Below, one piece after another: positions 23,697-62,483 of a stretch of 64,000 nucleotides of DNA (the stretch's first letter is position 1; the number at the start of each line of letters is the position of its first letter). The DNA is taken from assembly GCA_034440575.1 (NCBI GenBank), contig JAOTOL010001548.1, positions 1,641,501 through 1,705,500 on the forward strand, in the 5' to 3' direction. The notes below the pieces were generated by a model. The model was not told the DNA's origin. It did no database searches and saw nothing but the letters and a program-made list of their open reading frames with translations. This DNA is from Imbricaverruca yamaguchii (lineage: Eukaryota; Arthropoda; Thecostraca; Neoverrucidae). A program made the translations under genes and the position numbers.

Positions 23697-23847
23697 AGAT
23701 AGCTGGCGGCAGCAGCGACCTCTCGCCCGCCGCACACTTGGCTCGTGACGCGAGTGACGCGAGTGACGCGGGTGACGCGGGTGAGGCGAGTGACGCGGGT
23801 GACGCGAGTGACGCGAGTGACGCGGGTGACGCGGGTGACTGGGCGAC
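23697..23847 (+). promoter_or_regulatory. Putative acceptor and 5' UTR of the SSUH2 homolog with a 9-bp tandem repeat
   Basis: CGGTTTCCCCACAG ends at 23698 and is a good 3' splice site. The following 149 nt run to the ATG and contain about 11 units of GACGCGAGT/GACGCGGGT at 23745-23840. An in-frame TGA at 23836-23838 lies shortly before the ATG, so the repeat is UTR, not coding, in this frame. Where the upstream UTR exon lies is unknown. Confidence 0.5.
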
Positions 23848-24031
23848 ATGTCCGGCACGTACCCGATGGACGAGGTGACGCCCGGCCAGCAGATCGGCTG
23901 GCACATGGACGCTGCCGCCGGCTCGACCTCCGGCGCGCCTCCGACCTTCTCGGGCGAGCAGACGCCCTCGGCGCCGCCCATGCACTCGATGGACGACCTG
24001 CCTGGCTACGAGGGCACCACGTTTGACGGAG
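23848..24031 (+). CDS. SSUH2: SSUH2 homolog coding exon 1
   Basis: Encodes residues 1-61 plus one base, [10 protein letters not shown] through [13 protein letters not shown] chosen because an in-frame TGA lies 12 nt upstream. The donor GAG|GTGGGT is phase 1 and fits exon 2 exactly, giving the joint [11 protein letters not shown]. The last 34 nt plus the donor form the unit of the 46-bp array that follows. Confidence 0.9.
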
Positions 24032-27000: not shown

Positions 27001-30000
27001 CCCCTTTGATGTTAGGATGCAAAATCGGCAAATAGCACGGGACATTTGCATCATTTATTTCACGTGGAACCTTGAAGTGTTTGGATGATAGGGCGTTGCT
27101 TGTGAAGTGCATTGGTAGCATTTGGTATGTTTTACAAACATGTAGATGGTGTATGTGCAACTTGGTGAATGGCAACACATTACAGTGAAAACGTATGGGC
27201 CATTGCCGGACCAAATATCCACTGGTGAGATATCAGTGCAATGCTGATTTACAGAAGAAGGTTCAACCGCCTTTGCTGGCGTGTTAATGACGAGAATTCG
27301 CCGTCTCTGACAAACACGGGCAATGGGCACGAACGTATCGAGAAGGCAGAATGGTCTTGTGTATCGATACGTGGACTATTGTTGTCATGCCTTATCGTGT
27401 GAACTAGGTGAGAGGCAATGCAAAATCCATGGCCTTCTACTCGGAAAAGAACTAATTCATTCATGTTTGACGTTCACCCAGCTGATCTGCCACAGTCCCA
27501 ACAGCGGTTGAAAAGTGAGATCTATGCTATTTTCTGGAAGACTGGAGCAGCCTCTGGAAGCTACGTCAGCGCATACCAATGAAGAAGTGGCTGGCCGAGT
27601 GAAAGATGCTGCTCTGTCTATCTGGGATAAGTCAAATATTGTTCAAAGCACTAGCGATGTGCGAACCAATGCATTGGTTGGCAATCAACCTTTTTCATTA
27701 TCTTCCGCTCGTTCACGACATTGCAATGTCGCGAACGAGTGGAAGATAATAGAGAACATTGAACGACGACCTAAAACACACAGGATTCTGTCGAAATGGA
27801 AAACGGCCGCGGACAAGAAGAAAGGACGCAAGTTTCAGAACCGTAAAGAAAAGCCACAAAGGGACGAACTCTTTGACATTGCATGCTGTCGGCGTGATGT
27901 CACGAACGAGTCGTGCCGTGTCTGTCCGCCGGAAGTGCATCACCATCTCTGTGACAGAAGTGCAGTTACTGGGTGACCTGCGAAACGAGAGGCGTCTGTA
28001 AATCAGTTCAGCCCTGGATGTATGATAGGGCGCCACGAGACGACTTCAGCCGTGTATGTATGATAGGGCGCCATGAGACGACTTCAGCCGTGGATGTATG
28101 ATAGGGCGCCACGAGACGACTTCCAGCGAGACAGGCCCGTCGGCAGAGTTCGTGGGTTCAAAATTTGAGGACACCGTGATCGTTGCACGCCCACGTTCTC
28201 AACGACAACAGCAATGACCGCAACAGCAACAGCGCAGGATGGTGCAGATGAGAAGCCGAGCGATTCCCACTCTGAGGTCAGTACCGGCGACAAGTCCCTA
28301 TCCGTGGCCAATGCCGACACGGTAGCTGCCGATGTATGACCGCTCTCTCTACCTACTTCCATCATGGCGAGCCGTATGCGTCACGCGATCAGAGAGCGGG
28401 GACGAGACAACGTTTCCATCAGATGCGCAATACGGTTCTGCCTTCTCGACACGTAAATGCCCCGTGCCCGTGCTTGCCAGAAATGGCGAAGTATCGTCAT
28501 TGACACTACAGCAAAGCAAACTTTCTTCTTTAAATCATCATTGCATTGATATGTCACCGGAGGGTATTTAGTCTGGCAATGACCCACCCGTTCACACTGT
28601 AGTGCATTGCCACGCATAGACACCATTTACATTTATTTGCAAAGCATACGAAATGGTATCAATGCACTTTAGAAACAATGCCCTGTCATCGATGCACTTC
28701 GCGCTTACACGTGAAATAAACGACAAAAATGTTTCATGCTTTCTTCCTGTTTTGCATGTTCATGTCAGTGGGGATTTTAAGGCCTAGGGAATACAAAACA
28801 TTATTTGTTAAAAAAAGTTCGCGCTCAAAGAATATTTCGAGGAATTTTATATTGATGTTTTCCATTGTTTAAAGGTAGAATGCAAGCTGCGGTGCACTGG
28901 GAATACTCAACATAAAAAGTATAAAGTCGATCTGGTACATATGCTACAATTCGCTTAAATGGGGCGAATGGCAATTTCTGAACCTGTGTTAGGAGCCTTA
29001 ATCCCTGCTTTATCTGTGTAAATACCGTCCAACTGCGAAACGTGTCTTCCCCGCTTTTGAGGGGCACAACTGAATAGATGAAATCAATGTGAACTTGGAA
29101 TTTTGATAGTTGCCGAGTGTAAAAGCGTGTGCTTCAAGTAGTATTTCCTGTAAAAATATGCTAAGAATTAAAATGTATACAAATCTGCTGATGCACAAAT
29201 TGTAATATCGGGCACTTGGGGTCATGACCCCGAATTCGTCCTTTTTCTTTTGTTCACCTTTATTCGAATTGCAACGGCGCTTCATTTTCGCATACCATCA
29301 CACGTGCAGGTGAATACACTTATATCTGGAAATGTACATTTTGCACAAGTGGTTGCCACGCATCCGTGAACTTTTGCATTTATGCAATCTTGATTCTAGT
29401 GCATTTTTCGATTTCAAGCATTCTCCGGATCCTTCCCTTAAATTTCACCAGTGCCACTCTTCCGTTCCCCGATTTTCCTACCTACTATGCACTGGTTCAC
29501 GAACAATACCACTAAGTTGTCGATGTCAGTTGCACTTACACATCCAAACAGTATGAACTCTTTGTATAGTTTCTGGGTCGTTCGTTTCCAAGCCGCCCTT
29601 TAGATCAGACGGCAATGTTCCAAAGACTGTACAATGCTGAGTTAGGACGTACATTGCAATTGTTCAGTTGTAATTCCTGGCCAGTCGTGCGGCCAGTTAG
29701 GAGCGACTAAAACAATTATTTCATGGAAAACGCTTTCAGTGGGCTTCGCGCCCCGAACATTTATCGTTGGCGTGAAGTAGATCTCAGAATGCCCTGTTGA
29801 TCTAGTGTCCTTTTTGTGTGGAGGGTTGGAGGGGGCCGGCCGCCTTTTCTGCGCCTCTGATTCAGACCGTCTTACCAATGTGCCGCTCGTTTGTTGCTCC
29901 AATACGTCTTTCTTGATGTCGACATTCTTTGTATGGATTGGTACCGTGTCGTCAGGTATCAGGTATGGATTGGTGCCGCGTCGTCGGATATCAGGTATGG

Positions 30001-30392
30001 ATTGGTGCCGTGCCGTCGGGTATCAGGTATGGATTGGTGCCATGCCGTCTGGTATCAGGTTTGGATTGGTGCCGTGCCGTCGGGTATCAGGTATGGATTG
30101 GTGCCATGCCGTCGGGTATCAGGTGTGGATTGGTGCCGTGCCGTCGGGTATCAGGTGTGGATTGGTGCCGTGCCGTCGGGCATCAGGTATGGATTGGTGC
30201 CGTGCCGTTGAGTATCAGCATGCATTTGTTCTTAATCCGTAAGCTAAGATTAGTTTGTGAACCTTAATTCAGATGATCAATATTTGGAGTAAAAATCGTG
30301 TTGCACCATCGCTGGGTACGGCGCAGGCGAGGACCTCGCAGCAGGATATACTGGCGCTTGAAATACACGAAGGACTATAGATAAAACGCTCC

Positions 30393-30442
<50 letters not shown>

Positions 30443-33400: not shown

Positions 33401-36400
33401 CCTTAACCCTCTGGTCTCGGGGGTCTTCAACCGCCCCCTCAGGTTTTTCGTTGACAGCGGACGAACGGCGCGGGGCAGCGCGCCCAAATTTGGCATACCT
33501 TTTCCCACATGAATTTGACATGCTGATTCAAAAATTTTAGGTCAGGTCATCTAGGGTCAACGAGTTATTCAAGGTCAAGTGAGGTCACCTCCAAAAACGT
33601 TCAACCAGTCGTCACGCTTTAACGGATACAGATATTTTAATGAAACTTTCAGCGTTTGCTTATCTTCACGGATGCAACAAAACGTACGAGTTGAATTTCT
33701 CATTTATTTTTTCGTTTTTGACTACATATAAATTTTGCGTATTTGCCATATTGCAGTTCAAACACAGGATTCTGACTAAAGTAAGCATTTTTTCATTAGG
33801 GCAATTTGACTTCCAACAACATTTCTCGGTCTGCTCTACCCTTTGGAGAATGAAAATTAAAGAAAACTTGAAAACAAAAACAATTTTTTTTTTTTTTTTG
33901 TGGGGGGGGCAACACAAATTATAGCCCTGGTCGATTTCGCTGTCCTTTTCTCATTCTAAATTTTTTTCTTCTTCATATATCCACAAAATGAACACCCCAG
34001 AGTAAAAAACATAATGTAAGTCGTGAAAAGTCGTGAAAATCTAGCTCCCCTGGTGACGTCACTTTTGGGGGGAATTTTTTTGGGGGAGAGGGTGGATCCG
34101 GACCCTCCTCGTCGAGCGCTTTCTGATGACACCTCTTTCGTTTTCGTGCGATACTTAATTTGGATTTTAGATGGGGGGTCTTCAACCGACCCCCCCGAGA
34201 CAGGGCGGGAGGATTTGACAGGAAAGACGGCGCGGGTTAAGACACACCGGTGCCCTCCAAGCACACGGCGCCTCAAAATCATGTAAGGGCCGACAAAAAA
34301 CCGATGTATTCCTTACAACAACACACAAAGCTGTCCGGAACATGAAATAAACACAACGGGCCTTCGAGAACGAGCCGACCCCTCAAAACACCGTCGGTCG
34401 ACAAAGGGCGACAGAGCGCTAAGAAGGATCCAGGTCTCACCAACGTGCCTGAGCCTCCCCCAGAAAAATATGCTGGGGTCCTAAAGCACGCCAGTAGACT
34501 GGATCAGCACAGAAACGAATACCGGATAAACGAACGTTTGTTTGCCAATTTGAGAGCATATTTAGACAAAAATATGCGATACATCAAACCTCAGAGTGGT
34601 ATCCCGGAGTTGTATCCGGAGTTCTTTTCCACCAGAAAACGTGGGAAGAAGGGATGTTATGTTCGAATTTGAATTATCGAATTTTCCCAGCGAACCCCCG
34701 TACGAAGCATTTAATGATGTCGAATATGTCACCAGGCTATCATATGGTAGCAATTAACAAAACGTAGCTGTATCGGAAATCGCAGAATCGCACGAAGTGT
34801 GACGTGTGTGCCGAATGCAAGGCGGATACATCCGTACATAAACGTTGGAGTGTTGACGACTGGACGATATGAACTGAAATGCATGTGATAGGATTTTGAG
34901 AGCACCGTAGATTGATTTTTTCCAGAGTACTTCCAGCAGTGTGAGTTCACTTATCAAGGGATGCAGCAAAAAACAACTTTGAACAGAGGGAGGAGGCTGA
35001 GATCCAGTGACATAGGCGCGATGGTTGTGGACTGGCCCCCTCCGCTAGAAAATGTCGTTGGTGACAAGTATTTTCATTAAAAATGCCCCTTTAATAATGT
35101 CCCTTTAATAAAAATCATGCCTTCAATCTGTGGACTATTGAGAAAATGGGTTTAGGTAGGGACCCTCCAAATCCGTGTGCTCCTATGCCCGTCCCTCACA
35201 CAAATCATAGGTACGTCGCTGAATGAAACTCCTCATAAGCCCGTGAAGTAAACAACAGCCACAGCACACGACTCCAGCACATAGCTCCAGCAAGAAGCAA
35301 CAACGCCAGCTAAATTGATGTGTTGGGGTTGATTTCTGTAGCTATCCATAATAATTAATTGAAGGAAAGACTAGTCACAGATGAATGCATAACTATATAA
35401 GTTGAACCATGGCGTGAATTTATAAAGTCATTCATTCATATGTAACTTTCTTTTACAATACCTCATGATGTAAAGCTCTGTAAAGCTCCATGAATCTCCC
35501 TGACAACCTTACCTTAGTTGCCCAGTTGCTTGTTGCTGGAGCTGCCTGCTGGGGCCGTCGGCTGTGGCTGTTGCTAACTTCACGGACATGCTCCTCACAA
35601 ATGATGTGTCTCGCCGTGGATGTCCTCGTGACATTCACGAGTGGCACAGGTGCAGTTCCAGCGGAAAAATGTGGGCGAGTAAGCTAGGTACAGGAAACAA
35701 TCATATAAAGTGGAGGGGGGGTCATTAGGGCTTTAGGGCGCATCGACTACATTGGTCATGCAGCTCATATAAAGTGGAGTACCACCGAACGAGAAATTGC
35801 CATAAAATCAAGGAAAAAAGTTGCGTTTCGCAATATTTTGCCCTTATTTACCTGTGAAGGAATCGTGGGGTTGCCTAAACTATGCACGCAACCGCAACTA
35901 CATTCATCGCTACCAAAACGACAATGTTTTTTTTTGGCCTTGACATCAGGATTGAACTGGCTCCTGCACTTGCCCTTACATTTATGGGACAATATGTGTT
36001 ACGACCCCTACATGCTTGTGGTAAACGGGCTGATTTTCACCTGTGTGACCTGTGACCTGTGACCGGCCGGCAGGTTTCCAGCCGCCCCCGCCACCGTACG
36101 AGCCGCCCTCTGACGCCGGTCAGGGTGGCCGGGCGGACTTCAGTCAGAACGTGCTCACAGACGCCGACGTCAGGGCGTGCCTCAGCCAGTACGTGTCGGA
36201 GAACTGCTGCTTCGGCAAGGGTCCTCTTGAGCAGATGAAGATACTCAACATCGTGCCGTCGTCGGCCTTCAAGGTAGCTCCCCCTGTCACGGGAAGCGGG
36301 GGTCGGTGTCGTCCGCCTGCAAGGTACCTCCCCATGTCACGGATAACGGGGGTTGGTATCGTCGGCCTTCAAGGTTTCCCTGTCTGTGGCGAATGGCGGA

Positions 36401-39400: not shown

Positions 39401-42400
39401 ATAATAAGTGAAGTCACGTAAATAAAAGACAAAAGACACAGGAGTTTGCGTTCCCCAAGGGGACACAATTTTCGTTCAACCATAGCGATGGGTGCTGGTG
39501 GCCGGCTCATAACAATCGCTTTACCAAAGTGTTTGTTCAGTGGGGGCGAACTATGGTTCAAGCAGCTTCACTATGTAAGAATAATACCTTGGACAATTGT
39601 GTAAGTAGGAGTCGAAATGTGTCCTCTCACGCATTTCTCGATGTCATTTGACTACTTCCATTCCAAAGAAATACTAGGTAGTGGCCGTTGCCGTCCACGG
39701 GCAGGTCGGCTCCATCACCTCCCCGTTGGTGCGACGGCCACTACCTAGTATTTCATCGGAAGTAATCAAATGACATCGGTAATGCAATTTCAGAATATTC
39801 TGGTGAAATTATAAACCAACTCTCAAATGATGTGCAATTTCAACACTAGGAGAGACACATTTATGTTTGCGCAATGTAAGCCTAGACTTGAGCCCAGTCG
39901 TTACCCCTGTCGAAGCTGCATGTGCCGCCAACACGAGCTGACAGTCCGGCTGTGCTCTTCAGTACACACTGGACACATTCACCGAGAAGCGAGAGACCCA
40001 GTGGAAATACGAGCCGTCCTCTGGGCCGGCGATGCCGCCCACCGGGCTGGTGCCGCCCGGGCCCTGGGAAGTGCCCGTCTCGCCTCCAAAAATGTTCAAG
40101 GTACGGCTCAACGGTTTGTGTTGGTGTTGTGGCCCCGGTGTGTTCAAGGTACAGCTGGACTGTTTGTGCTGGTGTTCTGGCCCCGGTGTGTTCAAGGTAC
40201 AGCTGGACGGTTTGTGCTGGTGTTCTGGCCCCGGTGTGTTCAAGGTACAGCTGGACTGTTTGTGCTGGTGTTCTGGCCCCGGTGTGTTCAAGGTACAGCT
40301 GGACTGTTTGTGCTGGTGTTCTGGCCCCGGTGTGCTCAAGATACAGCAGGACTGTTTGGCTCGTGTTCTGGCCCCAGTGTGTCTGTATATGAGCCGTATG
40401 CATCAGTGGAACTACGGCATACCAGAGACGCGCTTTTTTTTACGAACTCCGTGAAGTTTAGCCTGGGTGCTTTCTGATGACGCTGTGCAGATGTCGCCAG
40501 AGCGGGAGTCGCTCAAAAGCGGACACTGATTTGATGGGGTGGCGAATTAATTCGGAAGGGGGACTTCATTGAAAATCGGCTGCAGCTCAATGAACTTCAA
40601 AGTCGTTCCGCGACTTCAGCCGGGCCCAGCCTCACCAGACTCGGATATGTCGACGATCATACTTTCCAGCCATTGTTTGTTCACTCAACATTTTGTTTTA
40701 GCTGATCAAATGTTGAATTAATGCCGAGAGGGTAAAAGAAAAGGCACCCAAGGCTGGCATACAATGCTGTGTTGGCCTACCCATGAGCTTCTATGGGCTG
40801 ATCGTGTTTTTTATAGTAAATTGTCAGTGATATTAGGTGATATATGGGTATTGAGGCGCATTTTGATATTTTGAAGTTATGTGAAGTCACAGCCTGCAGT
40901 TCAATCTCGATCGTTATCAATGGCGGACCCTGTGGGGAGTAAGCGGGCACACATTTTCACTAGAAATCTGCTGCTTGTATCACATGGGACTAGAAATCTG
41001 CTGCTTGTATTTTACTGATGTCGTCGAGCCCTTTGTTGTGACGTGCTGAATCATACTTCAAGTGCTTGTTGGACTCATGTGCTACGCAGGATAACGAGAC
41101 GGTCGAGGAGATCCCCAATACTGAGGTGGTGAAGCCATGTCACGACTGCCAGGGACACGGAGACGCCCGCTGCGGAGACTGTAGCGGACGTGGATACGTG
41201 AGTACCTCCAGGGATGGTGGCGCCCGCTGCGGAGACTACAGCGGACGTGGATACGTGAGTATCTCCAGGGGTGGTGGCGCCCACTGCGGAGACTGCAGCG
41301 GACGTGGATACGTGAATATCTCCAGGGGTGGTGGCGCCCGCTGTGGAGACTGCAGCGGACGTGGATACGTGAGTACCTCCAGGGATGGTGGCGCCCGCTG
41401 CGGAGACTGTGAAGGACGTTGATACGTTGGTGCCTTCAGACTGTAATTATGCTGACTATGGTTATTATTATAGTTAGTATAACTACGCACAGGTGTATAT
41501 TAAGCCCATGTGGAAGACAACACGGCGTGCTAGAACAGTCCAGACCGAGAACATTATCCTCCAATGGGTAATGCTAAAATATGACTAATGCTGGTATTAA
41601 CATCTGCATTGTGCCCGGCCGACCAGACAAAAGTCGTGGCTGAGGAAGTTTGAACTTTCAGCCAGTTGGACAGCATTTAAGCTATATGTACAATGCATTT
41701 GGATCGGATTTCCTCCGGACTTCATGCTGTATAATGTTCTGTGCCGTTGTATGCCTTCTGTGAGACATACGGATGCAATTACTATTATATGTGCAGGCAA
41801 AAACTTTGGAAGAAAAAGCCCCACGATGATTTTCCTGGGAGGATATTTTCACCACGGCACACGTGGCCGTGCCGCTCACCGCACCACACGTGACCGTACC
41901 GCTCACCGCACCACAGGTGGCCGTACCGCTCACCACACCACACGTGACCGTACCGCTCACCACACCACACGTGACCGTACCGCTCACCGCACCACACGTG
42001 GCCGTACCGCTCACCACACCACAGGTGGCCGTACCGCTCACCACACCACACGTGACCGTACCGCTCACCACACCACACGTGACCGTACCGCTCACCACAC
42101 CACACGTGACCGTACCGCTCACCGCACCACACGTGGCCGTACCGCTCACCACACCACAGGTGGCCGTACCGCTCACCACACCACACGTGACCGTACCGCT
42201 CACCACACCACAGGTGGCCGTACCGCTCACCACACCACACGTGGCCGTACCGCTCACCACACCACAGGTGGCCGTACCGCTCACCACACCACAGGTGGCC
42301 GTACCGCTCACCGCACCACACGTGGCCGTACCGCTCACCACACCACAGGTGGCCGTACCGCTCACCACACCACAGGTGGCCGTACCGCTCACCACACCAT

Positions 42401-45400
42401 AGGTGGCCGTACCGCTCACCACACCACACGTGGCCGCACCGCTCACCACACCACAGGTGGCCGTACCGCTCACCACACCACGGACCGTACCCACCCACGT
42501 GACCGTACCGCTCACCACACCACACGTGACCGTACCGCTCACCACACCACACGTGACCGTACCGCTCACCACACCACACGTGGCCGTACCGCTCACCACA
42601 CCACAGGTGGCCGTACCGCTCACCACACCACGTACCGCTCACCACACCACACGTGGCCGTACCGCTCACCGCACCACACGTGGCCGTACCGCTCACCGCA
42701 CCACACGTGACCGTACCGCTCACCACACCACAGGTGGCCGTACCGCTCACCGCACCACACGTGACCGTACCGCTCACCACACCACACGTGACCGTACCGC
42801 TCACCACACCACACGTGGCCGTACCGCTCACCGCACCACACGTGGCCGTACCGCTCACCACACCACACGTGACCGTACCGCTCACCGCACCACACGTGGC
42901 CGTACCGCTCACCACACCACACGTGGCCGTACTACTACCACACCACGTGGCCGTACCGCTCACCGCACCACACGTGGCCGTACGCTCACCACACCACACG
43001 TGGCCGTACCGCTCACCACACCACACGTGACCGTACCGCTCACCGCACCACACGTGGCCGTACCGCTCACCACACCACCACACACTGGCCGTACCGCTCA
43101 CCGCACCACACGTGGCCGTACTACTGACCACACCACACGTGACCGTACCGCTCACCACACCACACGTGGCCGTACCGCTCACCACACCACACGTGGCCGT
43201 ACCGCTCACCACACCACACGTGGCCGTACCGCTCACCACACCACAGGTGGCCGTACCGCTCACCGCACCACACGTGGCCGTACCGCTCACCACACCACAC
43301 GTGGCCGTACCGCTCACCACACCACACGTGACCGTACCGCTCACCACACCACACGTGACCGTACCGCTCACCGCACCACACGTGACCGTACCGCTCACCA
43401 CACCACACGTGACCGTACCGCTCACCACACCACACGTGACCGTACCGCTCACCGCACCACACGTGGCCGTACCGCTCACCACACCACACGTGGCCGTACC
43501 GCTCACCACACCACACGTGACCGTACCGCTCACCACACCACACGTGGCCGTACCGCTCACCACACCACACGTGACCGTACCGCTCACCACACCACACGTG
43601 ACCGTACCGCTCACCGCACCACACGTGACCGTACCGCTCACCACACCACACGTGACCGTACCGCTCACCACACCACACGTGACCGTACCGCTCACCACAC
43701 CACACGTGACCGTACCGCTCACCACACCACACGTGGCCGTACCGCTCACCACACCACACGTGGCCGTACCGCTCACCACACCACACGTGACCGTACCGCT
43801 CACCACACCACACGTGGCCGTACCGCTCACCGCACCACACGTGGCCGTACCGCTCACCACACCACACGTGACCGTACCGCTCACCACACCACACGTGGCC
43901 GTGCCGCTCACCGCACCACACGTGGCCGTACCGCTCACCACACCACACGTGGCCGTACCGCTCACCGCACCACACGTGGCCGTACCGCTCACCACACACA
44001 CGTGGCCGTACCGCTCACCACACCACACGTGGCCGTACCGCTCACCGCACCACACGTGGCCGTACCACACCACACGTGGCCGTACCGCTCACCACACCAC
44101 ACGTGGGCCGTACCGCTCACCGCACCACACGTGACCGTACCGCTCACCACACCACACGTGGCCGTACCGCTCACCACACCACACGTGGCCGTACCGCTCA
44201 CCACACCACACGTGGCCGTACCGCTCACCGCACCACACGTGACCGTACCGCTCACCACACCCACCCCCACGTGGCCGTACCGCTCACCGCACCACACGTG
44301 GCCGTACCGCTCACCACACCACACGTGGCCGTACCGCTCACCGCACCACACGTGGCCGTACCGCTCACCACACCACACGTGGCCGTACCGCTCACCGCAC
44401 CACACGTGACCGTACCGCTCACCACACCACACGTGGCCGTACCACTGACCACACCACACGTGACCGTACCGCTCACCACACCACACGTGGCCGTACCGCT
44501 CACCGCACCACACGTGACCGTACCGCTCACCACACCACACGTGACCGTACCGCTCACCACACCACACGTGACCGTACCGCTCACCGCACCACACGTGGCC
44601 GTACCGCTCACCGCACCACACGTGACCGTACCGCTCACCACACCACACGTGGCCGTACCGCTCACCACACCACACGTGACCGTACCGCTCACCACACCAC
44701 ACGTGACCGTACCGCTCACCACACCACACGTGACCGTACCGCTCACCACACCACACGTGACCGTACCGCTCACCACACCACACGTGACCGTACCGCTCAC
44801 CACACCACACGTGACCGTACCGCTCACCACACCACACGTGACCGTACCGCTCACCACACCACACGTGGCCGTACCGCTCACCACACCACAGGTGACCGTA
44901 CCGCTCACCACACCACACGTGACCGTACCGCTCACCACACCACGTGACCGTACCGCTCACCACACCACACGTGGCCGTACCGCTCACCACACCACACGTG
45001 GCCGTACCGCTCACCACACCACACGTGACCGTACCGCTCACCACACCACACGTGACCGTACCGCTCACCACACCACACGTGACCGTACCGCTCACCGCAC
45101 CACAGGTGGCCGTACCGCTCACCGCACCACACGTGACCGTACCGCTCACCACACCACACGTGACCGTACCGCTCACCGCACCACACGTGGCCGTACCGCT
45201 CACCACACCACACGTGGCCGTACCGCTCACCGCACCACACGTGGCCGTACCGCTCACCACACCACACGTGACCGTACCGCTCACCACACCACACGTGACC
45301 GTACCGCTCACCGCACCACACGTGGCCGTAGCTACCCTCACCACACCACAGGTGGCCGTACCGCTCACCACACCACACGTGACCGTACCGCTCACCACAC

Positions 45401-48400
45401 CACACGTGACCGTACCGCTCACCACACCACACGTGACCGTACCGCTCACCGCACCACACGTGGCCGTACCGCTCACCACACCACAGGTGGCCGTACCGCT
45501 CACCACACCACACGTGACCGTACCGCTCACCACACCACACGTGGCCGTACCGCTCACCGCACCACACGTGGCCGTACCGCTCACCACACCACACGTGACC
45601 GTACCGCTCACCACACCACAGGTGGCCGTACCGCTCACCACACCACACGTGACCGTACCGCTCACCACACCACACGTGACCGTACCGCTCACCGCACCAC
45701 AGGTGGCCGTACCGCTCACCGCACCACACGTGACCGTACCGCTCACCACACCACACGTGACCGTACCGCTCACCACACCACACGTGGCCGTACCGCTCAC
45801 CACACCACAGGTGGCCGTACCGCTCACCGCACCACACGTGGCCGTACTACTGACCACACCACACGTGGCCGTACCGCTCACCGCACCACACGTGACCGTA
45901 CCGCTCACCACACCACACGTGACCGTACCGCTCACCACACCACACGTGGCCGTACCGCTCACCGCACCACACGTGGCCGTACTACTGACCACACCACACG
46001 TGACCGTACCGCTCACCGCACCACACGTGGCCGTACTACTGACCACACCACACGTGGCCGTACCGCTCACCGCACCACACGTGACCGTACCGCTCACCAC
46101 ACCACAGGTGGCCGTACCGCTCACCACACCACACGTGGCCATACCGCTCACCACACCACACGTGACCGTACCGCTCACCACACCACAGGTGGCCGTACCG
46201 CTCACCACACCACAGGTGGCCGTACCGCTCACCGCACCACACGTGGCCGTACCGCTCACCACACCACACGTGACCGTACCGCTCACCACACCACAGGTGG
46301 CCGTACCGCTCACCACACCACAGGTGACCGTACCGCTCACCACACCACAGGTGGCCGTACCGCTCACCGCACCACACGTGACCGTACCGCTCACCACACC
46401 ACACGTGACCGTACCGCTCACCACACCACACGTGACCGTACCGCTCACCACACCACACGTGACCGTACCGCTCACCGTTTGCCGCTGACTCGCGCAGGAG
46501 ACGTGCACCAGCTGTTCGGGCACTGGCACCCGGATCGGAGACGAGACGTGCACGTGGTGCGACGGCACCGGCTCCAAGAGGTGCACGTGGTGCTCCGGTT
46601 CCGGCATGAAAACGTGCAAAACGTGCAACGGACATCGTTACCTGCGCTGCTATGTCGAACTGCGCGTCACCTGGTGAGAGAAGATCGAACTGGGGGCCGG
46701 TCACATCCTGACGAAAACCGAGCTCAGCACTGGTCACATCCTGACGAAAACCGAACTCAGCGCCGGTCGCATGCTGCTCCTGGCACCGTGCGTCAATGGA
46801 TTGTACCTGTGTTTATGCATAGTGAGCGCAGCTTGGACCAGACTGGGATCTGATAGCTTATGACGGGCCGCACTGACGTCCTGGTATTGCTGCCGATGGA
46901 GGGTCACACTGACGTCCTGGTATTGTTGCCGATGGAAGATTAACTGATGAATGACACGACGGGTAGGTGTTACCGGACAATATTAAGCATGAGATATGTG
47001 ATACTGGACCATTGAGCATGTGATACTGCGTGAAACAAATGCTGCTGCTGTTCTACTTTGCAACATGAAGCTTTGACTAGCGTGCAACTGATCACTTAAT
47101 AAGCTAGGATACCAGTGAGCAGCAGCATTACTGATTTACTGCGACACAAATCCCCTGATTGTCCCATCCAGCACTGTATTATCCATCCGACCCCTTCGCA
47201 TTAACTCGCTGTCCTCCCACTGGCAACCAGCCCCCTCACATACCCTTGGGCACCCTTTGGGGTGTCGTTTTGTGTTATTTTTGGGTGGCTCAAGTTACCC
47301 CAGCCTTCTCTTAAGCCACCCCAATACGGATTTGAGCCATCCCAATAGCTTTGCGGAAAAAATTAGCCATTAGAGCAACAGTGCACATTGTAAGCATGTG
47401 CACACATGATTAACAGTCCACATTTTCTTACTTACGTGCCCTCAACGCGACGTACACATATCTGGATCTTGTTAGTTATTAACACTTTAACAGTTGTGTT
47501 TTGCTTTCATTACTCGACTTATAGTTTCTCCGCCAACATGACTAAGGCGATTGCTAAGCCAATGCATGACTAAGCCAATGACAGTTACAGCCAAGTACAG
47601 AATAATTGTTTAGCTGTCTCCTGGACCCAGACATGAACAGCTAACACATCCGATAATATCATTAACCCGTCGCGTCTCGGGGGGGGGTCAACCGCCCCAC
47701 TCAGGTTTTTCGCGGACGAACGGCGCGCGGCAGCGCGCCCAAATTTGGCATACCTTTTCCCACATCAATTTGACATGTTGATTCAAAATGTTTAGGTCAG
47801 GTTATCTAGGGTCAACGAGTTAGTCAAGGTCAAGTGAGGTCACCTCCAAAAAAGTTCAACCAGTCGTCACGCTTTAACGGATACAGATATTTTAATGAAA
47901 CTTTCAGCGTTTGCTTATCTTTACGGATGCAACAAAACGTACCAGTGGAATTTTTAATTTCTTTTCGTTTTTGACTAAATAAAAATTTTGCGTATTTGCC
48001 ATTGGTGACGTCACTTTTTGGACAATGTCACTTCTCCAAAGCAATTTCCCCCCTGGTGACGTCACTTTTCGGAGGAAATTGTTTTGGAGAGTGGACCCGG
48101 ACCCTACTCGTCGAGCGCTTTCCGATAACGCCTCTTTCGTTCTCGTGCGATGCTTAGTTTGGATTTTAGAGGGTCGGTCTTCACCCCCCCCCGAGAGGTG
48201 AGAATTTGACCGGAGAGACGGCGCGGGTTAAGTTGTGGACACAATTAGCGACTCTGCGGGACAATGCTGACGATCATACTTGCGTGTGCTTTATTTTGCG
48301 AACAAAGCAGCCCGACCAAAATAACGAAAAGCTGCCATTGTGTTCCGAGTTCGAAAATATTGTTCATCCGTAGAGGTCAAGTTCAGCTGTATTCGCGAAT

Positions 48401-51400
48401 GGAGAACACGTCTCTATATGGCACATGCATATTTTTTCTGAACTGGCATGCGTGTGTCGCAAAACACTAGGCTAGTCTTGTGCTTGGCAATTGGTAAATA
48501 CCTCACACATCACTGTCCACACGATTCATCATCTCACTTCAACGACGCGAAGCTATCGATCCTCGCTCGTTGTGTGACAACAGTACGTTCGTTTTCTGGT
48601 TACGTAGGGTACGTAAACATAGGGTCCGTCTAAGGTCTTCCTCGACTGTGGCGAGCGATCCACACAGGGACATGACTGCGTGGGACGCGTTTGCCAGATA
48701 TCGCGCGATGATACTGCCGTTGAATTTAGCGAAGTGGTGTAGTCGTAATTCAGCAAGCTTAGATTATCGCATGCGCGAATGGAGGCATGCTGGAAAATGA
48801 GAGGAAAAGAACAAGATCTTCCTGTCAGTACGGGCCTTTTGATAGCGTAATAGGATTCATATTTTGTGCACTCGGTATTTTTCGCTGTCAAGCAAAGCTG
48901 TTCACATACGACCAAGACATACTATCCTTCGTGTTTGTGCTCAGAGCGGGTTTCCGGGTTCCTGCTCACGCCCATCACATCATATGCTTTCAAACATTTG
49001 AGCCATCACAATCATTGTCATAAGGCGACGCCCACGCTTTGAGCGGCGCGCTGACCCTGCCCGCTGTGACGTCAGGAGGAAGCACGACGACACGGCCGTG
49101 GTGGAGAAGACGTCGCTGCCCGACAAGCTGATCAAGTCGGTGGACGGCCAGGTGGCCTTCCGAGACGAGCGGCCTCGGGTGGCTCCCGTGGCCGGCTTCC
49201 TGGACCCACAGATCAGCCAGGCGTCGCAGGACCTGGTGCAGAAGCACAGCACCAAGTGGCCACCGGAGCGCATCATCATGCAGGTGTGTGACGCGGCTCC
49301 CTGGCCGGCGTCAGCCACAGGTGTGTGAGGCGGCTCCCTGGCCGGTGGCCGGCGTCAGCCACAGGTGTGTGACGCGGCTCCCTGGCCGGCGTCAGCCACA
49401 GGTGTGTGAGGCGGCTCCCTGGCCGGCGTCAGCCACAGGTGTGTGAGGCGGCTCCCTGGCCGGCGTCAGCCACAGGTGTGTGACGCGGCTCCCTGGCCGG
49501 CGTCAGCCACAGGTGTGTGAGGCGGCTCCCTGGCCGGCGTCAGCCACAGGTGTGTGACGCGGCTCCCTGGCCGGCGTCAGCCACAGGTGTGTGAGGCGGC
49601 TCCCTGGCCGGCGTCAGCCACAGGTGTGTGAGGCGGCTCCCTGGCCGGCGGCCGGTGTCAGCCACAGGTGTGTGACGCGGCTCCCTGGCCGGCGTCAGCG
49701 ACAGGTGTGTGAGGCGGCTCCCTGGCCGGCGTCAGCCACAGGTGTGTGAGGCGGCTCCCTGGCCGGCGTCAGCCACAGGTGTGTGAGGCGGCTCCCTGGC
49801 CGGCGTCAGCCACAGGTGTGAGGCGGCTCCCTGGCCGGCGTCAGCCACAGGTGTGCGAGGCGGCTCCCTGGCCGGCGTCAGCCACAGGTGTGTGAGGCGG
49901 CTCCCTGGCCGGCGTCAGCCACAGGTGTGTGAGGCGGCTCCCTGACCGGCGTCAGCCACAGTGTGTGAGGCGGCTCCCTGACCGGCGTCAGCCACAGGTG
50001 TGTGAGGCGGCTCCCTGGCCGGCGTCAGCCACAGGTGTGTGAGGCGGCTCCCTGGCCGGCGTCAGCCACAGGTGTGTGAGGCGGCTCCCTGGCCGGCGTC
50101 AGCCACAGGTGTGTGAGGCGGCTCCCTGGCCGGCGTCAGCCACAGGTGTGTGAGGCGGCTCCCTGGCCGGCGTCAGCCACAGGTGTGTGAGGCGGCTCCC
50201 TGACCGGCGTCAGCCACAGGTGTGTGAGGCGGCTCCCTGGCCGGCGTCAGCCACAGGTGTGTGAGGCGGCTCCCTGACCGGCGTCAGCCACAGGTGTGTG
50301 AGGCGGCTCCCTGGCCGGCGTCAGCCACAGGTGTGTGAGGCGGCTCCCTGACCGGCGTCAGCCACAGGCGTGTGAGGCGGCTCCCTGGCCGGTGGCCGGT
50401 GTCAGCCACAGGTGTGTGAGGCGGCTCCCTGGCCGGCGTCAGCCACAGGTGTGTGAGGCGGCTCCCTGGCCGGCGTCAGCCACAGGTGTGTGAGGCGGCT
50501 CCCTGACCGGCGTCAGCCACAGGCGTGTGAGGCGGCTCCCTGACCGGCGTCAGCCACAGGTGTGTGAGGCGGCTCCCTGGCCGGCGTCAGCCACAGGTGT
50601 GTGAGGCGGCTCCCTGGCCGGCGTCAGCCACAGGTGTGTGAGGCGGCTCCCTGGCCGGCGTCAGCCACAGGTGTGTGAGGCGGCTCCCTGACCGGCGTCA
50701 GCCACAGGTGTGTGAGGCGGCTCCCTGACCGGCGTCAGCCACAGGCGTGTGAGGCGGCTCCCTGGCCGGCGTCAGCCACAGGTGTGTGAGGCGGCTCCCT
50801 GGCCGGCGTCAGCCACAGGTGTGCGAGGCGGCTCCCTGGCCGGCGTCAGCCACAGGCGTGTGAGGCGGCTCCCTGGCCGGCGTCAGCCACAGGTGTGCGA
50901 GGCGGCTCCCTGACCGGCGTCAGCCACAGGTGTGAGGCGGCTCCCTGACCGGCGTCAGCCACAGGCGTGTGAGGCGGCTCCCTGGCCGGCGTCAGCCACA
51001 GGTGTGTGAGGCGGCTCCCTGGCCGGCGTCAGCCACAGGTGTGTGAGGCGGCTCCCTGGCCGGCGTCAGCCACAGGCGTGTGAGGCGGCTCCCTGGCCGG
51101 CGTCAGCCACAGGTGTGTGAGGCGGCTCCCTGGCCGGCGTCAGCCACAGGTGTGTGAGGCGGCTCCCTGGCCGGCGTCAGCCACAGGCGTGTGAGGCGGC
51201 TCCCTGGCCAGCGTCAGCCACAGGTGTGTGAGGCGGCTCCCTGGCCGGCGTCAGCCACAGGCGTGTGAGGCGGCTCCCTGGCCGGCGTCAGCCACAGGTG
51301 TGTGAGGCGGCTCCCTGGCCGGCGTCAGCCACAGGTGTGTGAGGCGGCTCCCTGGCCGGCGTCAGCCACAGGTGTGTGAGGCGGCTCCCTGGCCGGCGTC

Positions 51401-52544
51401 AGCCACAGGTGTGTGAGGCGGCTCCCTGACCGGCGTCAGCCACAGGCGTGTGAGGCGGCTCCCTGGCCGGCGTCAGCCACAGGTGTGTGAGGCGGCTCCC
51501 TGGCCGGCGTCAGCCACAGGTGTGTGAGGCGGCTCCCTGGCCGGCGTCAGCCACAGGCGTGTGAGGCGGCTCCCTGGCCGGCGGCCGGCGTCAGCCAACA
51601 GCGATACTGAGTAATCACGTGGTGTAGTGCGGCTAGGATCGGATTTCACCACTTGGCTGGTTGCAGGTTGTTTTATTCACGGCCATGTACCGGATATTGG
51701 CTTTGCCTGTGGAGTATGCCGGTGCTTAATTGCATCCGCCTTCGTAACATTTAACATAAACACAAATGTAATGCGTAACATAACGTGAACATAACAAACA
51801 TTCAACACCGCCGTGATGTCCACTTGCTGTCAATGCCACCTTTCATCAGAGACTGAATTTAGTAATCATATCCAGAAGTAGAACTGTCATATTTGTGGAG
51901 ATGATGTATTTGGACGATTCCTGTCCAGATGTATTCCTGATCAGTCTGTGGTCAGGATTATCAATAGATCGAACAGTGCAAGGAAGTTCACATGGAAACC
52001 AACGTTGGATATCGCATACTTGTATTCATTCTTCGAACGATCTCTGCGAAATTATTATCTGGGTGTTGAGGACGAAATATAAATGTCATAAAGCTCCCTT
52101 TCTACCTGAGCAGCAACGGAAAAGAACAACTCAATGATAGGAAGAGCTCATTGGGCCTTTATCACGCGCGTTCATGAGTTCGAGTTCTTCCGTCAGGGGC
52201 ATACAGACGAGCTCAACGTTGGGGATGGTAGGGAAAGAGGAACATGTTTTTTTCTTCAAAGTCGTCTCCTTTCATGCAGCGCTCGTGGCGGTAATGGCAA
52301 AGCTCACGCGGGGTCGGTTAGATAGCACCTCCTGCTCTTAAACCGACCGTGTCTGCGCTTATGTCACTCAGCCTAACACGACGGCCGTTGATTTCAGCGT
52401 CACAAAGTGCAAATCGTGCCCGTCAGTACTGTGGAGTACACGCTGGACGGCAAGGAGGCGACGTTCCACATCTACGGCGACCAGAACAAGGTGCACTTCC
52501 CCGACTACCCGTCTCAGTGCTGCGGCTGCTGCGTGCTGATGTAG
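23848..52544 (+). CDS. SSUH2: SSUH2 homolog (ssu-2 family), complete seven-exon gene, 386 residues
   Basis: The seven coding exons listed separately join to 1161 nt with intron phases 1, 0, 0, 0, 2, 0, all at GT-AG sites. Residues 1-62 are a Pro/Ser/Met-rich head ending [10 protein letters not shown]. Residues 63-75 are the proline-rich [12 protein letters not shown] joint. Residues 76-174 contain the ssu-2 core ([20 protein letters not shown]). Residues 191-257 hold six CXXCXGXG-type motifs at C191, C202, C213, C228, C239 and C250, the DnaJ-like zinc-ribbon region. The remainder is the conserved C-terminal domain, ending QCCGCCVLM. Known of the family: DnaJ-related cysteine-rich proteins named after nematode ssu-2; the biochemical role is poorly defined and human SSUH2 has been linked to tooth development. 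The terminal CVLM fits a CaaX box. Length is close to the vertebrate protein (about 375). All six introns are loaded with repeats. Confidence 0.93.
23998..24800 (+). repeat. 46-bp array duplicating the exon 1 splice donor, about 17 copies (intron 1 start)
   Basis: The unit starts CTGCCCGGCTACGAGGGCAC and ends in TTTGACGGAGGTGGGTACAGG. Each copy therefore carries the last 34 nt of exon 1, the AG|GTGGGT donor and 12 nt of intron. Copies start at 23998, 24044 and onward every 46 bp with 0-4 mismatches. Read through, the second copy reaches a TGA at 24070-24072, so only the first donor gives the correct product. Confidence 0.95.
25130..25690. repeat. Degenerate short-period arrays (TACGTGCGTAGCCAGGA and TACGAACGTCTACGGGCC types)
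   Basis: Inside intron 1. At 25150-25290 units of about 24 bp contain GTACATGCGTAGCCAGGA. At 25370-25690 12-bp-scale words such as CTACGGGCC, TTACGAA and GTCTACGGACAT recur. Divergence is high. The open frames across it are non-genic. Confidence 0.65.
25690..25805. repeat. (TA)n-rich microsatellite
   Basis: TATATA tracts interrupted by TACATA, TGTATA and TTTATA words; directly follows the degenerate array. Confidence 0.95.
26091..26237 (+). repeat. tRNA-derived SINE, family A, copy 2
   Basis: Box B GGTTCGAGTCT at 26119-26130, then TACTCTTCGCCCGCGACCAA, TCGGCGTGAGAGATTGGCGA and a tail of CCAACCAACCAACAA. Lies in intron 1 of the SSUH2 homolog. Confidence 0.8.
26790..27450 (+). repeat. Left arm of a large diverged inverted duplication
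   Basis: Colinear with the reverse complement of 28370-28990 over more than 600 bp. Matching landmarks: GCATTCCCCACGCACTGAAC, AATGTTTTGTGTTC, GCCTTATGTCCCC, TTTATTTCACGTG, AAGTGCATTGGTA, TATCAGTGCAATG, AGAAGAA and TCGAGAAGGCAGAA. Both arms encode the peptide VSRRQN(G/R) in corresponding frames, which suggests two inverted copies of a coding element rather than simple transposon ends. Confidence 0.8.
27664..27679. repeat. Perfect 16-bp palindrome
   Basis: AACCAATGCATTGGTT equals its own reverse complement. Lies 17 bp before a 54-bp near-palindrome. Confidence 0.9.
27697..27750. repeat. 54-bp near-perfect palindrome without spacer
   Basis: ATTATCTTCCGCTCGTTCAC... meets ...GCGAACGAGTGGAAGATAAT at the centre CATTG|CAATG; only two mismatched pairs per 27-bp arm. 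It is in the loop of the larger inverted duplication but is not at its centre. Confidence 0.92.
28010..28130. repeat. 38-bp tandem repeat, three copies
   Basis: TATGATAGGGCGCCACGAGA starts at 28021, 28059 and 28097 with one or two differences. Confidence 0.92.
28370..28990 (-). repeat. Right arm of the large diverged inverted duplication
   Basis: Reverse complement aligns end to end with 26790-27450 and points toward it. Divergence is substantial with small indels, so the event is old. A - strand frame in the arm reads [20 protein letters not shown], parallel to the left-arm VSRRQN frame. Confidence 0.8.
29934..30217. repeat. 32-bp tandem repeat, about 9 copies (intron 1)
   Basis: Unit contains TATCAGGTATGGATTGGTGC then CGTGCCGTCGGG, repeating every 32 bp. 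Each copy holds CAG|GTATGG, which resembles an intron donor, but no exon is recognised here. Confidence 0.93.
30394..30500. repeat. (TA)n microsatellite
   Basis: TATATA tract with CATATA and ATTATA interruptions. Confidence 0.95.
30881..31072. mobile_element. hAT-like MITE with short terminal inverted repeats
   Basis: Left end CAGAGGCGCAGCCAGG; right end, reverse-complemented, CGGAGGCGCAGCCAAGG. Flanking octamers ATTCCAAG (30873-30880) and GTTCTAAG (31073-31080) match at 6 of 8 positions, as an aged 8-bp target-site duplication. No transposase frame, length 192 bp. Confidence 0.65.
31140..31580. repeat. Two GC-rich GGCGCAGCGGCGCCGGCG clusters around an AT-rich core
   Basis: Clusters at 31165-31260 and 31455-31555 share GGCGCAGCGGCGC words and both end in GGCGCAAATA. 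Between them lies TA-rich DNA with a TTTAAAACCTTTCAACC duplication. Boundaries and nature are unclear; possibly two ends of one unit. Confidence 0.45.
31581..32430. other. No recognisable feature (intron 1)
   Basis: Short frames only; a small inverted match between the 32075-32165 frames is not significant. Nothing nameable. Confidence 0.35.
32440..33402. repeat. Strongly decayed tandem array, unit about 27-30 bp (GGCCCCAAAAATCGCACTG type)
   Basis: Words GGCCCC, CCCCGAAAA, AATCGCACTGGG and ACTCGCGCC recur at 25-32 bp across 950 bp. The array resumes at 34241-34480 beyond the MITE copy B, so the MITE inserted into an older satellite-like array. Confidence 0.6.
33403..34240 (-). mobile_element. 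TTAA-flanked MITE (piggyBac-like), copy B, full length
   Basis: 838 bp with TTAA at 33403-33406 and 34237-34240. Ends read TTAACCC inward from both sides (right end, reversed: TTAACCCGCGCCGTCTTTCC). A subterminal TCTCGGGGG(G)TC...TTCAACCG block is present at both ends as inverted repeats. No transposase frame. TTAA target sites and CCC termini are hallmarks of piggyBac-type elements. Lies in intron 1 inside a decayed array. Confidence 0.82.
35005..35221. mobile_element. Possible hAT-like MITE
   Basis: Left end CAGTGACATA; right end, reverse-complemented, CAGCGACGTA (8 of 10 match). Flanking octamers do not match, so this is tentative. Confidence 0.35.
35222..36073. other. End of intron 1, no clear feature
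   Basis: Holds short frames without domains. The last 40 bp before exon 2 contain a CCTGTGTGACCTGTGACCTG tandem and the acceptor GGCCGGCAG; the polypyrimidine tract is weak. Confidence 0.45.
36074..36273 (+). CDS. SSUH2: SSUH2 homolog coding exon 2
   Basis: 200 nt, residues 62-128: [15 protein letters not shown], then [20 protein letters not shown] and [13 protein letters not shown]. Acceptor GGCAG| at 36073 in phase 1; donor AAG|GTAGCT at 36274 in phase 0. The VRACL...NCCFGK segment is the recognisable N-terminal core of the ssu-2 family. Confidence 0.93.
36258..37045 (+). repeat. About 41-bp array duplicating the exon 2 donor, about 19 copies (intron 2 start)
   Basis: Units contain GTCGGCCTTGAAGGTAGCCC followed by GTCTGTGGCGGATGGCAGGG. 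The first unit is the exon end itself (GTCGTCGGCCTTCAAG|GTAG), so each copy repeats about 16 exon nucleotides plus an AAG|GTAGC donor. Early units are about 48 bp and later ones settle at 41 bp. The long - strand open frames across it are by-products. Confidence 0.92.
37574..37740 (+). repeat. tRNA-derived SINE, family A, copy 3
   Basis: Head GACGAGTAGTCCAGGGGTGA, box B GGTTCGTGTCCC at 37623-37634, then TACTTTTCGCCCGCGACCAA and TCGGCGTGGGAGATT. In intron 2. Confidence 0.8.
37793..37828. repeat. (GACTGC)n hexanucleotide repeat
   Basis: Six imperfect units of GACTGC/GACCGC/GATTGC. Confidence 0.85.
37978..38421 (+). mobile_element. TTAA-type MITE, copy C, 3' truncated
   Basis: Starts GCCCGCGCCGTCTTTCCGGT, then GTCTCGGGGG, TCGGAAAGCGCTCGACGAGT and TTTTCCAATGGGTAGACC, and stops at about 38421 where copies A and B continue. 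The left TTAA is mutated to GTAG. Opposite orientation to B and D; lies in intron 2. Confidence 0.78.
38422..39638. other. Intron 2 spacer with one 70-bp duplication
   Basis: Only feature: a direct duplication at 38870-38935 and 38940-39000 sharing ATGAGTGAGGTGGATA, GTGTGGCG and GATGGGGGTGGATG. No gene recognised. Confidence 0.5.
39639..39778. mobile_element. Fold-back MITE, 140 bp
   Basis: Arms: CGATGTCATTTGACTACTTCC at the left and GGAAGTAATCAAATGACATCG at the right, continuing into ATACTAGGTAGTGGCCGT and ACGGCCACTACCTAGTAT. Arms are about 45 bp with few mismatches around a GC-rich loop of about 45 bp. No clear target-site duplication. Confidence 0.82.
39963..40100 (+). CDS. SSUH2: SSUH2 homolog coding exon 3
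   Basis: 138 nt, residues 129-174: [19 protein letters not shown] through SPPKMFK. Acceptor CTGTGCTCTTCAG| and donor AAG|GTACGG, both phase 0. Confidence 0.9.
40090..40380 (+). repeat. 48-bp array duplicating the exon 3 donor, about 6 copies (intron 3 start)
   Basis: Unit TGTTCAAGGTACAGCTGGAC then GTTTGTGCTGGTGTTCTGGC and CCCGGTG. Donors AAG|GTAC lie at 40101, 40149, 40197 and onward at 48-bp steps. The unit repeats the last 8 exon nucleotides plus donor. Confidence 0.95.
41090..41197 (+). CDS. SSUH2: SSUH2 homolog coding exon 4 (first two zinc-ribbon motifs)
   Basis: 108 nt, residues 175-210: [16 protein letters not shown], then CHDCQGHG and CGDCSGRG. Acceptor GTGCTACGCAG|; donor TAC|GTGAGT, both phase 0. 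Three similar donors follow at 60-bp steps, so the exon could be extended by one to three 20-residue modules without a frame change. Confidence 0.9.
41150..41425 (+). repeat. 60-bp in-frame array carrying a CXXCXGXG motif and a donor, about 4.5 copies (intron 4 start)
   Basis: Each unit reads [22 protein letters not shown] in the exon 4 frame and contains GGATAC|GTGAGT (copy 3 has GTGAAT). It duplicates about 36 exon nucleotides, the donor and about 20 intron nucleotides. The frame ends at TGA 41420-41422 after the last partial unit. Confidence 0.93.
41858..46478. repeat. 27-bp array, about 170 copies, most with a CACGTG E-box (intron 4)
   Basis: Unit CACGTG(G/A)CCGTACCGCTCACC followed by (A/G)CACCA. 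Three two-state sites vary independently: CACGTG or CAGGTG, GTGGCC or GTGACC, and ACCACACC or ACCGCACC. Rare units are CTGACC variants or have 1-10 bp indels. The array ends 19 bp before exon 5. Because 27 is divisible by three, several frames stay open for hundreds of codons on both strands; these are not genes. Confidence 0.97.
46498..46673 (+). CDS. SSUH2: SSUH2 homolog coding exon 5 (four zinc-ribbon motifs)
   Basis: 176 nt, residues 211-268 plus two bases. CXXC motifs at C213, C228, C239 and C250 ([32 protein letters not shown]), then [12 protein letters not shown]. Acceptor GCTGACTCGCGCAG|; donor ACCTG|GTGAGA in phase 2, completed by the first G of exon 6 to TGG. Confidence 0.92.
46698..46936 (+). 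repeat. Two short tandem duplications at the start of intron 5
   Basis: GGTCACATCCTGACGAAAAC units of 33 bp (2.3 copies, 46698-46770), and a CACTGACGTCCTGGTATTG unit of about 37 bp, two copies at 46870-46936. They begin 25 bp after the exon 5 donor but do not include it. Confidence 0.88.
47662..48231 (-). mobile_element. TTAA-flanked MITE, copy D, internally deleted
   Basis: 570 bp with TTAA at 47662-47665 and 48228-48231. Terminal TTAACCCG...TCTCGGGGGG and reversed TTAACCCGCGCCGTCTCTCC. It lacks about 270 bp present in copy B, with the junction near 48000. It carries two TGACGTCA palindromes near 48005 and 48058. In intron 5. Confidence 0.82.
48232..49075. other. Rest of intron 5, no recognisable feature
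   Basis: Short frames only. Ends in the exon 6 acceptor CCCGCTGTGACGTCAG. Confidence 0.4.
49076..49283 (+). CDS. SSUH2: SSUH2 homolog coding exon 6
   Basis: 208 nt, residues 269 (split Trp) to 338: [44 protein letters not shown] and PPERIIMQ. Matches the C-terminal family domain. Acceptor GTCAG|, donor CAG|GTGTGTG in phase 0. Confidence 0.92.
49281..51598 (+). repeat. 37-bp array starting at the exon 6 donor, about 62 copies (intron 6)
   Basis: Unit GTGTGTGAGGCGGCTCCCTG then GCCGGCGTCAGCCACAG. Each unit boundary reads CACAG|GTGTGTG, a combined acceptor-like and donor-like site. The array runs without a break from the true donor CAG|GTGTGTGACG. Variants: GTGTGTGACG early, GTGCGAGG, GGCGTGTGAGG, TGACCGGC, and a few units with an extra GGCC block. 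Confidence 0.97.
51599..52397. other. Rest of intron 6, no recognisable feature
   Basis: Unique-looking DNA with short frames. Acceptor GGCCGTTGATTTCAG at its end. Confidence 0.45.
52398..52544 (+). CDS. SSUH2: SSUH2 homolog coding exon 7 (C-terminus, CVLM tail)
   Basis: 147 nt, residues 339-386: [37 protein letters not shown] and QCCGCCVLM, then TAG at 52542-52544. The final CVLM fits a CaaX prenylation box with three further cysteines just upstream. Confidence 0.93.
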   Translation, partial: RHKVQIVPVSTVEYTLDGKEATFHIYGDQNKVHFPDYPSQCCGCCVLM

Positions 52545-60721: not shown

Positions 60722-60748
60722 GAGAGATCAGCACATGAGAAGTAAAAC

Positions 60749-61790: not shown

Positions 61791-62290
61791 TTCGGAAATA
61801 GAAAATGGACTGTTGTAATGGATAGAAGCTGTTGTGAAATCAAGTGGTAGTGCTTCGCACCGGTCTTTGTATTCCGAGAAACGTCGACTTTTTTATTTTT
61901 CGATCGCTCGGAGAAGGCCCGTCCAATCTTGTCGGCGACATCCTTCGGATTAATAATATCATGTCCATTTATGTGGAGTGTGGGGAGTAGGGTACAGGTA
62001 AGTTTGCCGGAGATACGTTTGATGCGGGACCACACCGATGACAGCGAAGTGGAACGGTTCAACGTGTTGACGTACGCTTTCCACGATTGCCGTTTGGAAT
62101 CAGCAATTGTGCGCCTCGCGTGTGCCCTTGCCTTGCGAAAAGCTACAGAGATTCGCCATGGAACTGTTACGATTAAAAATACGGAATGCCTTCTTTCTAG
62201 CATGCAATGCATCTCGGCATTTATCAGACCATTAGGGGACTGGTACACGACGTGGTGTGCCCGACGAACGAGGAATATATTGCTCAGCAC
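61787..62290 (-). pseudogene. I-clade LINE linker between endonuclease and RT
   Basis: 167 codons, basic, with KRQSWKAYVNTLNRSTSLSS and VWSRIKRISGK, the pattern usual in I-element linkers (W-x-x-Y/F-x-x-x-L, then W-x-x-I/V-R). Confidence 0.7.
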
Positions 62291-62483
62291 TTTGTAACAT
62301 TGTGGTTGTAAACAGTTCTATGGAAACCAATCCTTCCGAGCACTCGCCGAGTCTCTCCTCGACATCGGACTGGAAGAAAGTCCAGTCAGCTTTCGCAAAA
62401 ATCCACCTGGGGGACGTCGACCAGCTTCCACACCATCAATGAAGCGAGTCCAAACGAATAAATGGTCGCTCGTACCTGGATCA

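Follow-up and report, generated by a model that had tools for sequence, protein, structure and literature searches.

The tandem arrays that lie across the exon ends of an SSUH2 homolog in the barnacle Imbricaverruca yamaguchii have the form of lancelet mirages outside the lancelets, unusually dense in one gene and new as far as our searches reach. All six donors of this gene have such an array, whereas 0 of its 6 acceptors are spanned by one. Arrays that span exon-intron boundaries are a feature of this genome, present at both ends of introns and at about the rate expected from the array content of the exon flanks. An excess at donors in the SSUH2 family is likely but not secure.

The window, i.e., the whole stretch of 64,000 nucleotides that was analysed, corresponds to positions 1641501-1705500 of contig C1315 in an assembly of 767 Mb and 1430 contigs. 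According to the gene model, an SSUH2 homolog with seven exons is complete within it (23848-52544, + strand); its product has 386 aa, and its six introns are all GT-AG. The coding part of exon 1 runs from the ATG at 23848 to 24031 (donor GAG/GTGGGT, phase 1; the slash marks the exon end), and is followed on the same strand by exon 2 (36074-36273, donor AAG/GTAGCT), exon 3 (39963-40100, AAG/GTACGG), exon 4 (41090-41197, TAC/GTGAGT), the CxxCxGxG-rich exon 5 (46498-46673, CTG/GTGAGA), exon 6 (49076-49283, CAG/GTGTGT), and exon 7, which includes the stop (52398-52544). The closest protein was P0001 of the barnacle Amphibalanus amphitrite, with 71% identity over the full length, and the alignment to it was gap-free at 6 of 6 exon junctions. 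The SSUH2 protein gave no Pfam match, and the Rfam and tRNA scans found nothing. A 9-bp repeat, GTGACGCGA, is present in 10.6 copies directly upstream of the ATG (23745-23839).

The original prediction stated that arrays start inside exon ends at five SSUH2 donors, with the donor in the unit, and Tandem Repeats Finder (TRF) and the gene model agreed with it. TRF arrays cover 5 of the 6 donors (exons 1-4 and 6) with units of 37-57 bp, and each of them reaches back into its exon, by 34, 16, 8, 34, and 3 nt for exons 1, 2, 3, 4, and 6, respectively. Array 1 (23998-24821; this and the following arrays are on the + strand) has 17.9 copies of a 46-bp unit made of 34 nt of exon end, the donor, and 12 nt of intron. 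Array 2 (36258-37014; TRF rows 36258-36375 and 36411-37014) has 50- and 41-bp units, with 16 nt of exon end in the first unit, and array 3 (40093-40382) has 6.1 copies of a 48-bp unit. Array 4 is anchored on its donor as predicted, with 34 nt of the exon 4 end in the unit; however, the unit length of 60 bp did not hold, since TRF gives 57 bp (4.6 copies) and a start at 41164 (41164-41427). Array 6 (49281-51583) has 61.8 copies of a 37-bp unit to which the exon contributes CAG only. Exonic homology beyond this CAG was not significant (P 0.07-0.45), and exonic extension past the TRF limits was not significant for arrays 3 and 6. A further array lies off the donors in intron 4 (41849-46476, +), where a 27-bp unit is repeated 172 times and ends 21 nt before the exon 5 acceptor; among the six SSUH2 acceptors, this one alone has an array edge at a distance of 25 nt or less. 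The intron-4 array has a C-rich unit and a GC skew of -0.44, occupies most of intron 4 with its 4.6 kb, and scores donor-like on the - strand (P 0.03).

Intron 5 had been set apart in the original prediction as carrying short arrays that begin past its donor. A short array was indeed found there (array 5, 46697-46776, +; 2.4 copies of a 33-bp unit), with the TRF edge 24 nt past the exon-5 donor, but it is no exception to the pattern, because a degenerate first copy covers the donor. When the 33-35 nt that precede the array and contain the donor were aligned to the array unit, the score was 6-7, compared to a background of mean about -7.5 and sd 3.6, and 0 of 8000 random pieces at each of three lengths reached such a score. 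Since this donor-containing stretch aligns far above background, we regard the intron-5 array as a sixth and older donor case. Its degenerate first unit (46663-46696, +) is identical to the unit at 21 of 34 positions.

The array units were mutually dissimilar in sequence, as had been predicted (15 pairs, shuffle P 0.21-0.98). The first unit matched the array consensus at 45/46, 31/41, 42/48, 56/57, 21/34, and 36/37 positions in arrays 1-6, respectively (range 0.62-0.98), and this unequal divergence suggests that the arrays differ in age or turnover rate. Furthermore, since the exon ends align gap-free with A. amphitrite, the SSUH2 arrays were copied from exon ends that are older than themselves.

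When the arrays were placed randomly within their own introns, an array edge within 25 nt of 6/6 donors had a P of about 2e-10, in a test that was made post hoc and assumed uniform placement. A local self-match of at least 0.8 was found at 4/6 donors and 0/6 acceptors, versus 33% of 3000 random SSUH2 intron positions. Location in repeated DNA, taken alone, is therefore less striking, because a third of random intron positions also self-match. We looked among the other minisatellites of the window (7 other units on both strands, a set that includes array 5) for hidden donors, and no exon was recognised. One of the arrays in the window, a 32-bp array deep in intron 1 (29931-30218), has a unit with a donor-like CAG/GTATGG on the + strand (P 0.009).

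As a control, exons of the chaperonin (CCT) genes were found one by one via a profile search, which gave 66 matches, and 30 loci with 1.5-kb flanks plus four stretches were examined. A junction was counted as spanned when a TRF array of period at least 12 ran across it. The count excludes L047, L055, L061, and L064, which are copies of other contigs, L049, in which no intron was seen, and L052, which had no usable donor; the acceptor at L072:574, which lies a few bases off its AG and has its nearest upstream array ending at 506, was counted as unspanned. With boundaries deduced from the profile matches and from splice-site scoring, several of them weakly supported, and with CCT as the sole family sampled in depth, 3/36 donors and 4/34 acceptors were spanned (P 0.71 for the difference), or 4/36 and 6/34 when array edges within 25 nt were included. 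Inspection of the sequence covered 6 of the 7 spanned junctions, the seventh being that of L073. Units with exon end and donor were seen near 1438 in L072, in L048, and in L063, and units with acceptor and exon start were seen in L065, in L066, and near 7086 in L072. An acceptor-spanning array with a unit of 76-87 bp occurs in both L064 and L065, on contigs C89 and C1012, which resemble each other closely and may be alleles or recent duplicates; it is not equally long in the two (1020-1566 versus 1044-1566). The single myosin donor looked at was spanned (1/1), a case that says little.

The CCT result bears on two claims of the original prediction. The expected donor enrichment in other genes of the genome did not appear in this family, and the same register of several arrays, although beyond chance for SSUH2 itself, could not be extended to a general seeding of arrays at 5' splice sites. 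The CCT result also bears on a reading in which SSUH2 is a chance tail, i.e., about 10% of junctions are overlapped by arrays and an extreme gene was noticed among many genes and windows. The CCT junction rate of 0.10 is near the array cover of the CCT flanks, 11.4% (25 of 30 loci), and this agrees with such a reading, as does the share of random SSUH2 intron positions that self-match. Nevertheless, the probability that at least 5/6 donors are spanned at the CCT junction rate is 5.5e-5, and one paralog, on contig C1118, shows the same tendency as the SSUH2 gene. We consider chance of this kind a possible but somewhat unlikely explanation.

Three SSUH2 paralogs in the same genome were compared, on contigs C1118 and C1162 and as an inverted neighbour on C1315; the exon 2 donor of C1162 and a few uncertain acceptors were left out. 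Arrays spanned 3/4 donors in C1118, 1/4 in C1162, and 0/6 in the inverted neighbour, which amounted to 4/14 donors compared to 0/12 acceptors. For the paralogs alone, the donors differed from their own acceptors with a P of 0.10 and from the CCT donors with a P of 0.085. For the whole SSUH2 family, in which the gene that prompted the comparison is included, 9/20 donors and 0/18 acceptors were spanned (P 0.0013), and the difference from the CCT donors had a P of 0.0024. Where homologous donors were arrayed in two paralogs, the intronic parts of the units were dissimilar (4 pairs, shuffle P 0.15-0.94, a comparison of short pieces with low power), and for this reason the arrays on homologous donors are probably independent. 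The first coding exon of the inverted paralog lies in the window (204-804, - strand), with the homologous phase-1 donor at 204 and array-free DNA in the 203 nt of intron that fall within the window. Since the phase of intron 1 is the same in this array-free paralog, array 1 is probably younger than intron 1. The inverted paralog extends beyond the window, and at two of its donors the nearest arrays begin some 75 and 100 nt downstream. The 204-804 exon also contains a 24-bp coding repeat (PYPSQTGA-like), and PYPSQ repeats are found in A. amphitrite P0003 as well. The longest contig given for P0001 and for P0003 has the same length, 852284 bases, which suggests that the two are neighbours in A. 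amphitrite too. In exon 2 of the inverted paralog (3115-3316 in the reverse complement of L034 and L035), P0003 matches in overlapping frames, 3115-3234 and 3227-3316, which appears to be a frame break.

These counts are what would be expected if a process linked to the donor, through transcription, an R-loop or a nick at the 5' splice site, seeded duplications preferentially there; the arrays on 6/6 SSUH2 donors, the 3/4 donors of C1118, and the family-wide difference between donors and acceptors all point in this direction. So does a 22/44-bp array in L003 (974-2115, contig C1320), which lies immediately downstream of the donor in an exon that we take to be that of Cdc27. Its TRF edge is about 40 nt past the donor, degenerate copies were seen by eye from about 10 nt, and the array turned up solely through its DNA similarity to array 1. 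However, the CCT genes have no donor preference, and the inverted paralog has no array on any donor. The R-loop mechanism suggested in the original prediction was also not borne out by strand composition: GC skew at the scale of the units was ordinary, with 20% of 46-nt intron windows reaching 0.23, and a strict G-quadruplex motif was absent from the sense strand of all 6 units. A GC-skew argument made at 400 nt, where 0.7% of 137 windows reached such a value, was dropped, because that scale is an unsuitable yardstick for repeated units. A donor-linked process is thus unlikely in our judgement. The proposal that some barnacle genes, SSUH2 and its paralogs included, undergo recurrent duplication of 5' splice sites by splice-site-linked germ-line mutation, which puts independent arrays on homologous donors, is quite doubtful.

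The copies of the donors were examined for signs that they are maintained. GT was intact in 17/18, 13/17, 5/6, 5/5, and 50/62 units of arrays 1, 2, 3, 4, and 6, respectively, and these 90/108 units are what selection for spare donors, another suggestion of the original prediction, could appeal to. Yet conservation of the GT in the copies did not exceed that of its neighbours in the unit (rotation P 0.7, 0.9, 1.0, 0.79, and 1.0), and the same was true of the nine-base donor (rotation P 0.28, 0.63, 0.58, 0.58, and 0.89), in a test based on 17, 16, 5, 3, and 61 units of the same arrays. Moreover, the copies of array 5 have lost GT. On read-through beyond the donor, an in-frame stop comes at 39, 211, 223, and 43 nt for exons 1, 2, 4, and 6, respectively; for exon 3 the 282 nt read were stop-free, with array 3 in frame throughout. 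Only in arrays 3 and 4 is the unit length divisible by three, so that a longer in-frame protein via the next copy donor would be possible only at exons 3 and 4. For exons 1, 2, and 6, unit lengths and stops indicate that splicing from the next copy would bring in a stop or a frameshift. GT conservation in the copies therefore lends no support to selection for spare donors, which we regard as extremely improbable. In array 6, GT to GC changes in the copy donors occur only in the distal half, in a near-periodic pattern.

Tandem arrays are prone to misassembly, and the pattern might have been produced in this way. An assembly artefact is nevertheless very improbable, with units that differ between arrays, copies that vary within arrays, exons that join gap-free in comparison with A. 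amphitrite, and boundary-spanning arrays on other contigs.

The original prediction knew of no described case of this regularity, but minisatellite-like tandem duplications of exon-intron boundaries have been published from lancelets under the name of mirages. They have been described in Adh3 and in the globins BflGb6 and BflGb9 (PMC3087553), with troponin C and PGBD5 as further cases (PMC3902484). According to these papers, mirages occur at 5' and 3' boundaries, and splicing is apparently regular; the units are 10-72 bp in Adh3 and about 150-160 bp in the globins. As far as these descriptions go, the barnacle arrays are like mirages in that their units combine exon edge, splice signal, and intron, in that they occur in several genes at 5' and 3' ends, and in unit size, which falls in the Adh3 range. 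They differ from them in that the host is a crustacean and not a cephalochordate and in that one gene has all six of its donors and no acceptor involved. Length instability between alleles or somatic cells is another trait of mirages, and the contigs C89 and C1012, with their unequal acceptor arrays, may be either alleles or recent duplicates. The model of Rogers, as cited in PMC3087553, derives intron gain from the tandem duplication of AGGT proto-splice sites. The duplication in SSUH2 likewise includes AG/GT, but its introns are 1-12 kb long and the acceptors lie outside the arrays. No barnacle case of boundary-spanning arrays was among the matches listed in searches of the open-licence literature on barnacles, crustaceans, arthropods, and other groups, and the words "splice" and "exon-intron" are absent from the main text of a paper on Daphnia tandem repeats (PMC3152781). 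In the literature covered, the structure had been reported only in lancelets, and it is now seen in a crustacean, at about a tenth of the CCT junctions examined.

We consider it probable that these arrays arose through the ordinary seeding and growth of minisatellites in a genome dense in repeats, where exon ends tolerate them and the SSUH2 family has them with an unusual bias to donors. With about a tenth of the sampled exon-flanking DNA consisting of arrays, short tandem duplications may have fallen repeatedly across the ends of exons. Where a donor is duplicated in this way, the original exon end and donor would stay in place upstream, so that the first donor should still be usable, and the extra copies would then be intronic, presumably drifting neutrally and multiplying by ordinary minisatellite turnover. 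If donor duplications are tolerated and their copies are free to multiply and decay in this way, the presence of the arrays, their register, the lack of extra donor conservation, and the mixed divergence would all follow. SSUH2 would have gathered events of apparently different ages on all six donors, perhaps through a tolerance shared by the family. Tolerance alone does not explain the donors-only pattern in the SSUH2 family, since the CCT genes have arrays at both ends, and a local or donor-linked mutational bias may add to it. Candidate reasons for the donors-only pattern are weaker constraint on a duplicated family, local mutability of arrays, and donor-linked mutation.

A genome rich in such boundaries could show how duplicated splice sites come to be ignored or used, whether they feed the growth of introns or exons, and whether duplication favours donors. 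In addition, gene prediction in barnacles may be misled by exon ends copied into introns; the spliced aligner used here chose a copy donor after skipping an exon.

Some other repeats and genes were also noticed. A dispersed repeat, part of which is tRNA-like (GAGTAGCCTAGGG..TAAGTTGCTCGTCTCAC), is present at 1-165 of the window (- strand) and at 2207-2300 of L003. What is left of a non-LTR retrotransposon lies at 59390-63038 (- strand) and includes stretches of endonuclease, reverse transcriptase, and RNase H; a contig of 1612 bases carries a relative of the RNase H stretch, with 84% identity across 55% of that stretch. Among the 62 P450 matches listed, at least 24 extend in a single open frame over 370 or more of the 462 positions of the profile, and are thus intronless over most of the domain.
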